This document shows positions 46,841 through 64,000 of a stretch of DNA of 64,000 nt, piece by piece. Within the stretch, counting starts at the first letter, position 1, and each line of letters starts with the position of its first letter. A program made the position numbers and the translations under genes. The notes beneath the pieces were generated by a model. It was given only the letters and a program-made list of their open reading frames with translations. It was not told the DNA's origin and did not search any database. The DNA comes from a bacterium (GTDB taxonomy: Bacteria; Zhuqueibacterota; QNDG01; DSAB01): contig JAFGDT010000115.1 in assembly GCA_016931965.1 (NCBI GenBank), forward strand, positions 62,001-126,000, written 5' to 3'.

Positions 46841-47239
46841 TTATGGTTCTTGCTCAAATTGGTTGATTCTATTTTGATAATAGAGACATTGTTCATTGGA
46901 AATGAAACGAACCAATTCAGCGACAGTGAAAGGCTTTGTCAATCGAGGATATTGATAAAGCATCTTTTTCTCTGGATCCTCTTCATCAAATCCATATGCA
47001 GACATGAGAATAATTCGAACCTGCGGATATTTTTCACGGAGTTGTGAAACCATTGTGTACCCATCCATAGGAGCCATACGAATATCGGATACAACAATTT
47101 CACACATATCTTCTTCCATAATCTTAAAAGCCTCTTTGCCATTCCGAGCTTCCCTAACGGTAAAATCAGAACGCTTAAGACCGATTGAAAGTGTTTTTAA
47201 AACGTTTTTCTCATCGTCAACGATAAGAACCTGTGACAT
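46841..47239 (-). CDS. Single-domain response regulator (receiver)
   Basis: The receiver shows the acidic pair in VLIVDDEKN, the phospho-acceptor aspartate in VVSDIRM near residue 53, the Ser in LMSAYGF and the conserved Lys in RLTKPFT. There is no output domain; the last 20 residues are a short helix. The start is an ATG with AAGGAG 9 nt upstream. It lies downstream of the NtrC/kinase pair on the same strand but is separated by 266 bp, so it may receive phosphate from that or another kinase. Confidence 0.92.
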   Translation of the reverse strand: MSQVLIVDDEKNVLKTLSIGLKRSDFTVREARNGKEAFKIMEEDMCEIVVSDIRMAPMDGYTMVSQLREKYPQVRIILMSAYGFDEEDPEKKMLYQYPRLTKPFTVAELVRFISNEQCLYYQNRINQFEQEP

Positions 47240-56910: not shown

Positions 56911-57312
56911 TCAATCTATCTCGGATGCTTTTCTCTCTCCTATTCGCTGTTCACGGCACGACAAACCGCGATTGACAAGATCCATCATCTGTTCCATTTC
57001 TATGGGCTTTGTAATATAAGTGTATCCATCCTCCTCAATTGTTTCAACAATGGTCTCCGCTGAGGGGTATCCTGTCAACATGATAATAATGGCATTGGGA
57101 TCCAGAGCTTTTGCTTTTTTTAGAAAATCAATGCCACTCATTTCTGGCATCTTGATGTCCACGATTGAAAGTGCAATCGAACCGTCTTGAAATATTTCCC
57201 ACGCTTCTCTGCCATTCTTGGCTTCTACGGGGACATGATTCATTTTCTGGATAATTTTTACAATGGTCGACCGTATAACATCCTGGTCATCCGCGATGAG
57301 AATTTTAGCCAA
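56911..57312 (-). CDS. Single-domain response regulator at the end of the pckG operon
   Basis: The receiver has ILIADDQDVI, the phospho-aspartate in LSIVDIKMPEMSG near residue 53, MLTGYPS and the lysine in YITKPIE. There is no output domain. The start is a TTG, 6-7 nt after AGAGG. It lies 95 nt after pckG on the same strand, in probable continuation of the operon headed by the two-receiver PPDK_N-like protein, so the two may share a kinase or exchange signals. Confidence 0.9.
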   Translation of the reverse strand: MAKILIADDQDVIRSTIVKIIQKMNHVPVEAKNGREAWEIFQDGSIALSIVDIKMPEMSGIDFLKKAKALDPNAIIIMLTGYPSAETIVETIEEDGYTYITKPIEMEQMMDLVNRGLSCREQRIGERKASEID

Positions 57313-57407
57313 AACAAACCTCTCATTTAATCATACTTCCGATTTTATTGATAAGGAAACGAAAAAATGATCTCTATTTGTATATCATCATCTATAAATC
57401 AACCATT

Positions 57408-59288
57408 TCAATAAATGAATTTTTGAGGAGCAATATAATCTCCAAATTGAGCTCTCGCCTCATTCAATCGTTGAGTTTCCTCAGCAGCGATTTCGAAAAG
57501 AATGTCGGGTGTGGTCGGCGCTTTTGTCTTATAAGTTTCAACAACGCGATGAATTTTGTTTAAAAACTCATTGACTCGTATCGTAAATTGCTGAACATAA
57601 TCCTCTTCAGTATATTCCTTCCCCAACAGATCATGAAACAACCTTTTAAGATCCTGATAAACGGGAATTCGCCCCACAGGCGTGTCAATGGCTTCGACTT
57701 CTCCATGAACACGTTGTTCCATCCATTTCAACCAGATTCTTTTATCCATCCGATCATTAACGAAATTGCCTTTTTTATCTTGTAAGAAATAATTTACACC
57801 AAAAATATGGGGCGGATTTTCAATATCACAACCAAAGTCTAAATTGATCTGAATATATTGACCCAGAGGTATGGGAATAAAATCAAGATTCGACATGGGA
57901 TTCAATTTCGGGACACCTTCTCTTCCCAAAGTGGCTGCCGTTGTTTCAGACTCAAGAGCCGATGCTACAGAAATAATGCCGTGCTTCCAATCAAAAGCTT
58001 CTCTGACAGGGACCCACGTATTTGAATCGCGTCCGCCATATATAAATCCGCTGACATGAACCCCAAATGGATTATCGATCTCTGCGCTCACATTTTCCAG
58101 GCATTTTAAATCAAGCGTAAATCGTGCATTTTTATGTGATGATGTAATTTCATTGCCTTTTTCATCTCTTTTACCGAGTGTCCATTCTCCTGAGTAATTC
58201 ACACCTTTTTCTGGAATCTCAGAATCTTTACCAATCCAATAAACAGAGCCATCCTCAAGCTTAAGAACATTTGAAAAGATGATCTCATTCGGTTTGTTTA
58301 GCGCTTCCCAAATGATGGGATCATCTTTTGAGTTAACACCCATAATAATCCCAAACATGCCTTTTTCGACATTCACGGCATATACTTTACCATCCCTCTT
58401 CCGTAAATAAGCAATATCGTCGCCAACGATTGTTTCCCCAACCAAAGTAGAAGTGGATGTCTTTCCGCAGAGAGAAGGGAAGGCTCCTGTGAAATAGGTT
58501 ATTCTTTCATGATTTCCATGCACTCCCATCACAAACATATGTTCACACAACCACCCCTCTTCAGATGCACGTTTAATGGCTAACCGCATGGAGAGTTTTT
58601 TTAATCCGAGCGTATTTCCGCCATACTGTGTGTTCGCACTGAAAACGACACCCTCTTCCGTATCAATATAGATCCTTCGATCAGCTACATTTTTACTGAC
58701 ACCATTCTCCAGTTCTCCGGCACTATGCACAATACGGAAAAATTTTGCTTTTTCCCCTTGACGTTTAAATTCTTCATACCCCTGCCGATAGAGTAAATCC
58801 AAGCTATGGGCCACATAGGCTGAATCGGTCAATTGCACAGTGAGCATTGAGAATTCAGATCGAGTAGGTCCGAGACAGAAAAATCGCACATAAAGCGTTT
58901 TGCCCACCATGATATTTTTCATGATCTTTTTAATTTCTTTCAATCCTTCTTCTTTGTCAATGCCGTTGATATAGGGACCGAGATCAACACCCTTTGGGAG
59001 AAGAAACTGTGTATGGGCTTTATCACGAGCCTGATCATGATACCCATCAAAATGGATTGTGTGTCCCTCTATAGCCAATTTTTCTTCTTCTCCATTTCGA
59101 ATTGCAGATTCGCGTATATACTGAAGATCTTCCTGTGAATCCGTACAAATATACACATCAGCAGGTTTGCACAGCTCAATATATTCAGCAACAAATTGAA
59201 CCAGATGGTGATTGTCTATATCTAAAAGTTTGGTATAGTGATTATCCTGTAATTTATTTCTTAATATCTCCAACCATTTTTCATTCAT
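57408..59288 (-). CDS. pckG: Phosphoenolpyruvate carboxykinase (GTP)
   Basis: This enzyme converts oxaloacetate and GTP to phosphoenolpyruvate, CO2 and GDP. The PEPCK-specific motifs are 'RRIYIDTEEGVVFSANTQYG' (substrate loop), the P-loop-like 'FPSLCGKTSTSTLVG' near residue 272 with the reactive cysteine, and 'KDDPIIWEALNKPNEIIFSN'. The 626-residue length is that of the GTP form. The ATG has GGAGATCC upstream. It follows the zinc-ribbon gene by 72 nt. It is central to gluconeogenesis and the PEP-oxaloacetate node. Confidence 0.96.
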   Translation of the reverse strand: MNEKWLEILRNKLQDNHYTKLLDIDNHHLVQFVAEYIELCKPADVYICTDSQEDLQYIRESAIRNGEEEKLAIEGHTIHFDGYHDQARDKAHTQFLLPKGVDLGPYINGIDKEEGLKEIKKIMKNIMVGKTLYVRFFCLGPTRSEFSMLTVQLTDSAYVAHSLDLLYRQGYEEFKRQGEKAKFFRIVHSAGELENGVSKNVADRRIYIDTEEGVVFSANTQYGGNTLGLKKLSMRLAIKRASEEGWLCEHMFVMGVHGNHERITYFTGAFPSLCGKTSTSTLVGETIVGDDIAYLRKRDGKVYAVNVEKGMFGIIMGVNSKDDPIIWEALNKPNEIIFSNVLKLEDGSVYWIGKDSEIPEKGVNYSGEWTLGKRDEKGNEITSSHKNARFTLDLKCLENVSAEIDNPFGVHVSGFIYGGRDSNTWVPVREAFDWKHGIISVASALESETTAATLGREGVPKLNPMSNLDFIPIPLGQYIQINLDFGCDIENPPHIFGVNYFLQDKKGNFVNDRMDKRIWLKWMEQRVHGEVEAIDTPVGRIPVYQDLKRLFHDLLGKEYTEEDYVQQFTIRVNEFLNKIHRVVETYKTKAPTTPDILFEIAAEETQRLNEARAQFGDYIAPQKFIY

Positions 59289-59360
59289 GTGGATCTCCTA
59301 CCATTCCATCTACATACAATTGACAAATCCGACAAAATGTTATTTATGAATTCAATTCAA

Positions 59361-59552
59361 TTAATGTTTCAATGAATCGTTCATTTGATTATTGGATTCT
59401 AAAGTGGTCTCATCAAAAGCATCGAGAATAATCCGATACCAACACCCTTTACACATCAAAGCACGATCGATACTTAAAAGGACTTTCTCCCACGGACTCA
59501 ATTCCCGTTTGCAGTGAGGACAGATTTCAGGTACATTTTCGTTTCCAGCCAA
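59361..59552 (-). CDS. 63-residue zinc-ribbon protein between the PPDK_N-like gene and pckG
   Basis: Two cysteine pairs, CPHC and CKGC, separated by 24 residues, form a probable zinc ribbon. The rest is acidic and helical. The start is TTG, preceded by GGAGG that overlaps the end of the upstream frame, so translation is coupled to the PPDK_N-like gene. No family is recognised. It may be a small regulator or adaptor in this operon. Confidence 0.7.
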   Translation of the reverse strand: MAGNENVPEICPHCKRELSPWEKVLLSIDRALMCKGCWYRIILDAFDETTLESNNQMNDSLKH

Positions 59553-59554
59553 TT

Positions 59555-62500
59555 CTAACCCTCCGGTTTAATCACAACCCCTTTATTATGATGACCACTC
59601 ATTTTAACAACGAGCGGTTTTTGAAACTCGATATGTCGCGTGTAATCCAATTTCTCCTTGACAGGTTGTTTCAGCAACCAATCCCAATCGACAAATCCAT
59701 GATTGCTTTCGGATTTTACTGTAAAATAACCCACCATAAACGTGTTCAGATTCTGGAAAAAATGGGAACCTTGAGAGGGTTCAACAACAAAATCCCGGAA
59801 TCCGGTTTCAATGATCACTTTCGCATTGGCAATCTGATCCCACGTTACGGGTATGCCCAACCAGGGATCCAATGTTCCCCATCTTCCGACACCAATCAAA
59901 AGATACCGTCGTTTATCACCAACCAGTTTTGTATTGAGATATTTGATTTCCTGGGCAACCTGATTGCTTTTTGATCGATCAAATAGATTACGATCGACCA
60001 TGACAATATCATAAATGGTGTCGATAAGACCGTTTCCCAATACTTGGTCACTCTGACAAATGAGATCTTTATAATCATAATCTTCAATTTTTAATACTTC
60101 CAACTCAGGATTCACCGCCATGGGTCGCATCTGTAAGAGACCAAATTCCTGTCTTTCCTCTTTTTTCTCAGATAAATCGACAGCAAATTCAATCTCAACA
60201 GGTGTTCCCATACCCCACATCCCCATATCCAGAATTAGATCCAGTATTTCAGCCAGTGGAAATATTTTATTTTTAAGGATGGGTGCAAAAGTAACCAGAC
60301 GGATGCCCTCCTTGGATGTTCCGTCATAAATCATATCATTTTCCGGTGAATAAGTCGATCCAATATGAAATAAAACCCCATTTTCTTCTGCAAGTTTTAA
60401 TGCATATTTTTTGACAAAACGATCTTTTGTTTCGTACTTATTTTCATTAATTCCATCAAGATCCAAAGCAAAAAAGTCCTTCTGGCTATTCTGGATAAGG
60501 GAATCCTTCGAGCCAAATTGATCCATATGAGCCGGATACTTCGGACAAAACCGAACAGACGATCCCCCTTCCATCACCATTTTCCCAAGCCCCAGAGCCA
60601 GTGAAGCGATCCCGTCCGAGGATTTCTGCGGAGGTACAGGATAAAAGTTATATGACCTTGCCACACCCGAAAAATCTGGATAAAACCGATTGTGATGAGA
60701 TGTTCCGATCATTTTTTGTACGATAACGGCCATTTTCTCATCTTCAAGTCGATAGGATGTTGCCCTGATATAATTTTTTGCAGATTGGAAAAATGTGGAA
60801 GCATAGACTCTCTTTATCGCTTTTACCAGTTCTCCCAAGCGTACCAATAGATCTGAATGGCTGTTGGGTAACATATAGGTTTTATATACACCTGCAAAAG
60901 GGTGATTGTGCGAATCTTCAAGAAGACTCGAGGAACGAACCGCCAATGGTCTATCAATGATATCTAGAAAAGCGGACAGTTCACCTAAAATTTCTTCAGG
61001 AAATTTTTTCGCTTCAATGAATTTTTTTAATATCAAACCATCTTCATCTGTATTGAGAGCAAAATTACGTAAATTATTTTCCTCAAGAAATTGATCGAAA
61101 ATATCTGTCCCGATGATGATGGCTGGTGGAATATATATTCTCACACCCTTAAATCGGTTTTGAACATTATAATTATTAATAATAATATTGATAAAACTCA
61201 GCCCTCGCGCTTTTCCTCCTAAAAATCCTCCACCAATTTTTGAAATGCTGCTGTAGGGATCAAAAGATTCTTTATCAAACTCCGTGATAATCCCTCTCTG
61301 TCTGAGTTTACGATACCCTTTTAGAGAGGCAATTAAATCTTTCCGCATTTCAGTAATCGAAGGGAAATCAGATACTTTTCGGGGTCTTAATTGGTGGGCC
61401 AACCAAAACTCCGTTCGGGCTTTTAACCAGTTTGAATAGTGATTCCGTTCAGCATGATATTCCATACTCTCATCGGGTATGGTATGCAGCTCTTTCTCCA
61501 ATGAAAGTAGATCATGAGCCCGGGCAACTTCGTGACCGTCCGGTGTTCGAAAAACAAAATCACCAAAACTTAAATACTCTGTCATGAATGTTCTTAAATC
61601 TTCCAATAAAGTGGGCGAATCTTTCACAATAAACGAAGCCCCGATCGCTTTGGCATTTTTTTCATTCTCAGGTAAGGTTGAATGAAGCAGTATCGGTATG
61701 TCTGCCTGTTGTTTTTGTACATTCTCTGCAAAATCAAAACCTGCCTGCGGATCCATTTTACCATTGTGGGGGAAATCGATGTCCGAAATAATGCCTAATA
61801 TGGTATCTTTATATCGGGTATAATAATTCCAGGCTTCCTCATAGTTATTACAAAGAAGTATTTTCGTCCTTGCTCTCTGGCGCAATTGCTTGTGTGATAG
61901 ATTGATACCTTCAGAAATGAGACGCTGAGATTGTCTCATAATTTCGAGGTAAATAATGGGTAAAAAATAGGAGTAATACCAAATATTATCTTCTATAAGA
62001 ATAATCGACTGGACGCCGACTATTTTTGTATCATGCTCGACATTCAAACGATCTTCAAGATGTTTGATAATGGCAATAAGCAGGCGGAAATCACCTTGCC
62101 ATATAAAAATCTGATCAAATACAGAAGCTTCTTCCTGTCTAAGCAAATCCGACAATTCACGGTTATCAAAAGCCAGTAACACAATAGGAATATCAATATT
62201 TTCTTCCCGTATTTTTTTTGCAAAAGAAGTCGGCTTCATATCTTCAATATGAAGGGTCGTTATGATCAGATCAAATCGTCTCTCTTCTTTCGCCAAAGCG
62301 ATACCTTCTCTTCCACTTGATACCCGGGTAAGTTCAGGTGCATGTGTTAGATTTAATTTCTGATATTGATCTCGAATGAGCTCGTACAATCGCCCATCTT
62401 CCTCAAAAACGTATAAATCATACAAACTCGAAACGAGAAGGATATCGCGAATTCTTAATCTCATAAGATTTTGGAAACCCTGAAATCGGGTACCATACCC

Positions 62501-62557
62501 ATGTTCCACCCATAGGGGATCGGCATGGGGCAAAGCTTTATTGAAATTATATTTCAT
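59555..62557 (-). CDS. Two-receiver protein fused to a PEP-synthase/PPDK N-terminal (ATP-grasp-like) domain
   Basis: Residues about 35-175 form a receiver-like domain whose phospho-site position reads TTLHIED rather than aspartate. Residues about 185-340 form a second receiver with a plausible aspartate in IISDIDFPHNG. Residues about 430-830 match the nucleotide-binding domain of PEP synthase / pyruvate phosphate dikinase ('IGGGFLGGKARGLSFINIII', 'PLAVRSSSLLEDSHNHPFAGVY'). The phospho-histidine swivel domain (TSHAA type) and the PEP-binding barrel are absent. It therefore cannot carry out the full PpsA reaction. Its operon with pckG points to a role at the PEP node, possibly as a signal-gated phosphotransfer or sensor protein. 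The ATG at 62557 has no obvious SD. Confidence 0.85.
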   Translation of the reverse strand: MKYNFNKALPHADPLWVEHGYGTRFQGFQNLMRLRIRDILLVSSLYDLYVFEEDGRLYELIRDQYQKLNLTHAPELTRVSSGREGIALAKEERRFDLIITTLHIEDMKPTSFAKKIREENIDIPIVLLAFDNRELSDLLRQEEASVFDQIFIWQGDFRLLIAIIKHLEDRLNVEHDTKIVGVQSIILIEDNIWYYSYFLPIIYLEIMRQSQRLISEGINLSHKQLRQRARTKILLCNNYEEAWNYYTRYKDTILGIISDIDFPHNGKMDPQAGFDFAENVQKQQADIPILLHSTLPENEKNAKAIGASFIVKDSPTLLEDLRTFMTEYLSFGDFVFRTPDGHEVARAHDLLSLEKELHTIPDESMEYHAERNHYSNWLKARTEFWLAHQLRPRKVSDFPSITEMRKDLIASLKGYRKLRQRGIITEFDKESFDPYSSISKIGGGFLGGKARGLSFINIIINNYNVQNRFKGVRIYIPPAIIIGTDIFDQFLEENNLRNFALNTDEDGLILKKFIEAKKFPEEILGELSAFLDIIDRPLAVRSSSLLEDSHNHPFAGVYKTYMLPNSHSDLLVRLGELVKAIKRVYASTFFQSAKNYIRATSYRLEDEKMAVIVQKMIGTSHHNRFYPDFSGVARSYNFYPVPPQKSSDGIASLALGLGKMVMEGGSSVRFCPKYPAHMDQFGSKDSLIQNSQKDFFALDLDGINENKYETKDRFVKKYALKLAEENGVLFHIGSTYSPENDMIYDGTSKEGIRLVTFAPILKNKIFPLAEILDLILDMGMWGMGTPVEIEFAVDLSEKKEERQEFGLLQMRPMAVNPELEVLKIEDYDYKDLICQSDQVLGNGLIDTIYDIVMVDRNLFDRSKSNQVAQEIKYLNTKLVGDKRRYLLIGVGRWGTLDPWLGIPVTWDQIANAKVIIETGFRDFVVEPSQGSHFFQNLNTFMVGYFTVKSESNHGFVDWDWLLKQPVKEKLDYTRHIEFQKPLVVKMSGHHNKGVVIKPEG

Positions 62558-62649: not shown

Positions 62650-62690
62650 AAAAAAATCGAAATACAATAAAAATGCATTCCGATTTTTTT
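62650..62690 (-). terminator. Terminator after glutamate dehydrogenase
   Basis: On the minus strand an A-rich arm (AAAAAAATCGGAA) pairs with TTTCGATTTTTTT with one G-U pair, a 15-nt loop and a U-rich end. It lies 31 bp past the dehydrogenase stop and separates it from the pckG operon promoter. Confidence 0.55.

Positions 62691-62721: not shown

Positions 62722-64000
<1,279 letters not shown>

Follow-up and report, generated by a model that had tools for sequence, protein, structure and literature searches.

The gene neighbourhoods examined here support well the conclusion that the recurrent partner of a 1000-residue receiver-PPDK_N fusion protein, henceforth referred to as the big protein, is glutamate dehydrogenase (GDH). 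Because it travels with GDH in many phyla, and not with the pckG gene that lies near it here, the big protein is probably a dedicated GDH controller. The fuller proposal, that it is a receiver-gated regulator dedicated to GDH and acting via an ATP-using output module, is given about an even chance. The gene lies near one end of the 64,000-nucleotide stretch of bacterial DNA that was analysed (the window), among the following features:

62722-63981, minus strand: gdhA, NADP-type glutamate dehydrogenase, with its true start past the window end
62650-62690, minus strand: A/U-rich hairpin with a U-run, a possible intrinsic terminator (RNA fold, 17-pair stem, z -1.9)
59555-62557, minus strand: big gene, 1000 aa, receiver-receiver-linker-PPDK_N-C-terminal domain, candidate GDH regulator
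62093-62446, minus strand: receiver 1 of the big protein, residues ~38-155, degenerate
61574-62008, minus strand: receiver 2, residues ~184-328, intact
61298-61567, minus strand: linker, residues ~331-420, with columns conserved across the family
60089-61246, minus strand: PPDK_N ATP-grasp domain, residues ~438-823
59558-60082, minus strand: C-terminal domain, residues ~826-1000, of no known family or fold
59361-59552, minus strand: zinc-ribbon-like protein, 63 aa, CxxC...CxxC, TTG start
57408-59288, minus strand: pckG, GTP-type PEP carboxykinase, 626 aa
56911-57312, minus strand: single-domain receiver, 133 aa (PF00072, E 1.9e-23)

The last four genes had been described in an earlier note on this DNA as a same-strand series with short gaps, and this arrangement was confirmed on the minus strand. 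The gaps between big gene, ribbon gene, pckG and lone receiver gene are 2, 72 and 95 nt, the ribbon gene starting 2 nt beyond the big-gene stop. The domains named there were likewise borne out, namely the receiver/receiver/PPDK_N series of the 1000-residue protein, the four-cysteine ribbon, the GTP-type pckG (Pfam PEPCK_GTP/PEPCK_N; NCBIfam NF003253, 655 bits, cut-off 504) and the lone receiver. The Pfam matches of the ribbon were all under cut-off, and its Cys-x2-Cys...Cys-x2-Cys pattern is kept in 16 further loci. In the lone receiver the canonical residues (acidic pair, acceptor Asp, Thr, Lys) can be read by eye from the sequence; another short ORF some 10 kb away (window positions 46841-47239, minus strand) clusters with its gene. 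The scan for promoters gave no proof of the single one suggested for the four genes, with 23 promoter-like matches where 20.1 are expected by chance.

Three points had been missed in that note: the upstream NADP-GDH, the lack of a phospho-acceptor Asp in receiver 1, and the conserved C-terminal domain. The NADP-GDH gene, which runs past the window edge, is separated by 164 nt from the big gene downstream of it; in the whole genome its open frame encodes 465 aa. It was identified by matches to PF00208/PF02812 and to NCBIfam NF006929 (709 bits, cut-off 536). The A/U-rich hairpin falls in the intergenic stretch from gdhA to the big gene; a consensus terminator scan gave no call at 62650-62690.

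The association with GDH was measured among 39 copies of the big protein, complete or partial, in 82 genomes of the window's phylum. In 33 of the 39 copies gdhA was found within 5 kb, mostly at a distance of 7-500 bp, and in all 33 it was an NADP-GDH gene upstream on the same strand. Counted per genome, 35 encode both proteins, 2 the big protein alone, 6 NADP-GDH alone and 39 neither (Fisher p 2.6e-14, uncorrected for relatedness among the 82 genomes). A GDH fusion was not seen among the open frames of the phylum, a point against a dedicated GDH regulator.

Similar linkage was observed over a wider range in 80 named loci, which represent the best 80 of at least 594 relatives and are biased towards close relatives. 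These loci come from KSB1, Calditrichaceae, Ignavibacteria, Acidobacteria, Gemmatimonadota, Planctomycetota, Zixibacteria, Eisenbacteria and others. A GDH gene was found within 3 kb in 59 of these best 80 loci, and in 44 of the 54 among them whose two flanks each reach 1.5 kb or more. Its placement in the 59 was upstream on the same strand (45), downstream on the same strand (8) or downstream and convergent (6), and the three arrangements indicate that the linkage survives rearrangement. Additionally, GDH is divergent from the big gene in two Bacteroidales. Query-free clustering of neighbouring ORFs placed GDH in 53 of the best 80 loci (of at least 594), and the next family in at most 7. Of 11 genomes whose copy is without a GDH neighbour, all carry a GDH elsewhere.

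The earlier note had placed the big protein at the PEP node, as an inferred phosphorylation-gated controller or partner of PckG. Tabulation of pckG linkage, named beforehand as the refuting test, revealed no recurrence: pckG lies near 1 of the 39 phylum copies, which is the window's own, and in none of the best 80 named loci of at least 594, and per-genome co-occurrence was not significant (p 0.21). The partner that does recur is GDH. The partnership with pckG was discarded on this lack of recurrence, while the other half of the proposal, that the protein is regulatory and gated by a receiver, is a reasonable one. The genes of about a dozen relatives run GDH, big gene, zinc ribbon and then a second GDH, whereas in the window the slot past the zinc ribbon holds pckG and the lone receiver, so that this layout appears from the gene orders to be a local substitution. 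In two other genomes (G003:C115, 10256-13463; G008:C244, 18409-21623), on contigs that lack the big gene, ~250 bp separate pckG from a GDH-family gene upstream of it. The presence of pckG here may thus make metabolic sense, as the gene can fit glutamate-linked neighbourhoods. Control of PckG, which has this and the adjacency in the window in its favour, is nonetheless highly improbable in view of the counts above.

The domains of the big protein were assigned from Pfam matches to PPDK_N (PF01326, residues 446-823, E 1.2e-38) and to Response_reg (E 3.4e-8, two stretches). Receiver 1 has in relatives mostly T, M, S or N instead of Asp at acceptor position 101. Receiver 2 displays the response-regulator residue set (acidic pair, Asp, Thr/Ser, Lys): in an alignment of 66 sequences E189, D259 and K312 are invariant, position 190 is D or N, and position 293 is Ser or Thr. 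The linker is weakly DUF5752-like in Bacteroidales relatives (PF19027, E 5e-5 to 0.008). In PPDK_N, K449, R541, E788, E790 and Q809 are invariant over the same 66 sequences and R811 is found in 65. These ATP-site residues align with those of the PPDK encoded in the same genome, the Lys being paired via the GGK motif and not by alignment column. Whether the ATP site is intact had been left as a check; with the structure predicted and the residues aligned, the ATP-site residues, like those of receiver 2, are intact as judged from the 66 sequences. AlphaFold models had a mean pLDDT of 85 for the whole protein and of 90 when the C-terminal domain was modelled by itself. The best PDB fold match of the receiver pair is PleD, and that of the whole protein is HpeI (9goj), the ATP-grasp subunit of a two-protein aromatic dikinase (PMC12167813).

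The C-terminal domain carries the motif GRWG...LGIP...PSxG[ST]HFFQN, in which H932 is invariant in all 66 sequences; in one more distant paralogue the position is occupied by Tyr. Sequence searches of Pfam and PDB with this domain returned nothing credible, and a PDB fold search with its model gave no match at E <0.04. The PEP-utilizers swivel (PF00391) had no Pfam match in the big protein, and profile-profile comparison with hhalign against 21 swivels gave a probability of 0.2%. A cryptic swivel was considered, as hinted by the order of secondary structure near His932, and was set aside when neither the profile-profile comparison nor the fold search with the confident model supported it. A PEP/pyruvate-binding barrel also had no Pfam match, and the protein ends ~175 residues past PPDK_N. 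The earlier note was consequently right to call the swivel missing and to deny that this is a PEP synthase, with the swivel unseen by Pfam, profile-profile comparison and fold search and the PEP barrel unseen as well; what had escaped attention is the C-terminal domain that occupies the place of the swivel. His932 may be a phosphoryl acceptor or a catalytic residue.

The C-terminal domain is common to all paralogue forms examined. Of 11 copies of a receiver-less paralogue of ~590 aa, 8 follow a second GDH at 182-322 bp, and at several loci this form is in turn followed by a PPDK_N form of ~920-1060 aa, of which three of the four read carry a C-terminal nucleotidyltransferase motif. Such PPDK_N proteins by the second GDH were observed at L048 (4446-7631) and L052-L054, where three of four read have the nucleotidyltransferase GS...DID end. 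It is possible, judging from these motifs, that the nucleotidyltransferase-bearing paralogues nucleotidylylate the adjacent second GDH. The genome of the window also encodes an 871-aa PPDK_N paralogue among genes of nitrogen metabolism, in the order amt, glnB, glnA, SPFH/Band_7, PPDK_N paralogue, second glnA, gltB, gltD (L147, G000 contig C72, 984-17214).

Elsewhere the PPDK_N and C-terminal module is joined to PAS and receiver domains, to a GAF-like N-terminus (a label given by eye, without a family match) or to a C-terminal nucleotidyltransferase. Signalling proteins are usually built in this way, from an output module combined with a variety of inputs, and the shuffling of this module among PAS, GAF-like and nucleotidyltransferase parts suggests that it is an ATP-dependent signalling output.

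A relative of the big protein was found in 87 of 99 sampled Bacteroidales genomes, with a GDH neighbour at part of the loci only. Universal co-occurrence with GDH was rejected for this order, as 8 of the 12 genomes without the big protein still have GDH; this looser link speaks against a dedicated GDH regulator. The Parabacteroides distasonis protein WP_041525632.1 is related to the big protein over its full length (41% identity, residues 28-998), and its gene adjoins gdhA. Bacteroidales relatives bear only the automatic name 'PEP/pyruvate-binding domain-containing protein', and the literature search yielded no function for them. In many Bacteroidales there is also a second copy, extended at its N-terminus by a sensor-like region; at L212-L222 these copies are 1150-1570 aa long, the extra N-terminus being PAS in one and GAF-like by eye in others, and in several cases they stand in tandem with the 1000-aa copy. 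At a Parabacteroides distasonis locus (L149, 8988-13715) rapZ, a nucleotidyltransferase-family gene and an endonuclease/phosphatase-family gene come after an NADP-GDH gene on its strand, over ~3.2 kb, in a run that converges on the PPDK_N gene beyond.

In the mechanism proposed for the big protein, receiver 2 would take a phosphorelay signal, and this signal would alter the state of the output module made up of the PPDK_N ATP-grasp and C-terminal domains. The module would use ATP, possibly to pass a phosphoryl group to a histidine as PPDK_N kinases do, and would switch the activity or the assembly of the neighbouring GDH. Three elements of this scheme are inferred: the big protein would bind GDH, it would work through phosphoryl transfer, and receiver 2 would gate it. 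The linkage data apply equally to a non-catalytic adenylate sensor, in which PPDK_N would bind ATP or AMP without phosphate transfer and act on GDH by binding, thereby coupling ammonium assimilation to energy charge as well as to a two-component signal. Such a sensor is consistent with the absence of an acceptor domain recognisable by profile-profile comparison or fold search. It is unlikely, however, as the phosphoryl-transfer residues are invariant or nearly so over the 66 sequences, beyond the need of simple binding.

The comparison with known PPDK_N kinases bears on a different reading, in which the protein is a metabolic dikinase that phosphorylates a small molecule of glutamate/2-oxoglutarate metabolism, as Rph, HpeHI and phenylphosphate synthase act on their substrates, and the linkage to GDH reflects a pathway. 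It would be in keeping with the fold match to HpeI and with the existence of PPDK_N kinases with separate subunits (PMC12167813). In HpeI/CreI/PpsB and rifampin phosphotransferase the PPDK_N ATP-grasp is detached from the PEP barrel, as in the big protein, but these enzymes rely on a swivel His domain together with a small-molecule site, whereas the big protein has receivers before the ATP-grasp and an unrelated C-terminal domain after it. The two-component dikinases known so far depend on a swivel/His protein, and none is encoded beside the big gene: an HpeHI-type partner with swivel and substrate domains is absent from the window operon, and there is no recurrent non-GDH neighbour among the best 80 of at least 594 relatives. 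Receiver, PAS and GAF-like inputs are, moreover, typical of signalling proteins, and a metabolic dikinase is accordingly rather improbable. The big protein could also make new GDH active by folding, assembly or a one-time modification instead of tuning it. By its title, a 1996 study by Baggio and Morrison reportedly found GDH activity in B. thetaiotaomicron to be dependent on one or more trans-acting genes situated downstream of gdhA, which would suit a maturation factor. That title was not taken as direct support, because the Parabacteroides gene order makes another gene equally possible; in Parabacteroides distasonis one NADP-GDH directly precedes rapZ and the genes after it, and the trans-acting gene may be a different one. 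Many GDHs also occur without the big protein, and the chance that it is a maturation factor is slim.

The receiver-gated GDH regulator can be placed against several known systems. PEP synthase and pyruvate phosphate dikinase have an ATP-grasp with the same conserved ATP-site residues, but the big protein is without their GGxTSHA swivel and PEP/pyruvate barrel. As in PleD/PorX-type response regulators, receiver folds are joined to an effector, although here there is no GGDEF or PorX-type output and the effector consists of PPDK_N and the C-terminal domain without known fold. The proposed role is comparable to that of the GlnD/GlnE-type nucleotidyltransferase regulators, each a dedicated regulator of an ammonium-assimilating enzyme, and one paralogue class beside the second GDH indeed has a nucleotidyltransferase domain (GS...DxD). 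The window protein has no such domain, however, and the analogy is functional only. The literature that was searched, mostly outside subscription journals, on the fusion, on GDH with PPDK or PEP synthase and on GDH histidine phosphorylation, contained no description of the big protein.

It is conceivable, though we put it forward tentatively, that the PPDK-derived module and the new C-terminal domain constitute a widespread and undescribed system that reversibly modifies GDHs, and perhaps GS/GOGAT, by a phosphoryl transfer new to bacterial nitrogen control, with receiver, PAS, GAF-like or nucleotidyltransferase parts. How GDH is controlled in Bacteroidota and their relatives, abundant gut species among them, is poorly understood relative to the enterobacterial GlnD/GlnE/P-II scheme. 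The big protein is a concrete candidate for a GDH regulator, present in most sampled Bacteroidales and located beside gdhA in the window's phylum and at many named loci. If the module does act on another protein, a metabolic-dikinase domain would have been turned into a signalling output.
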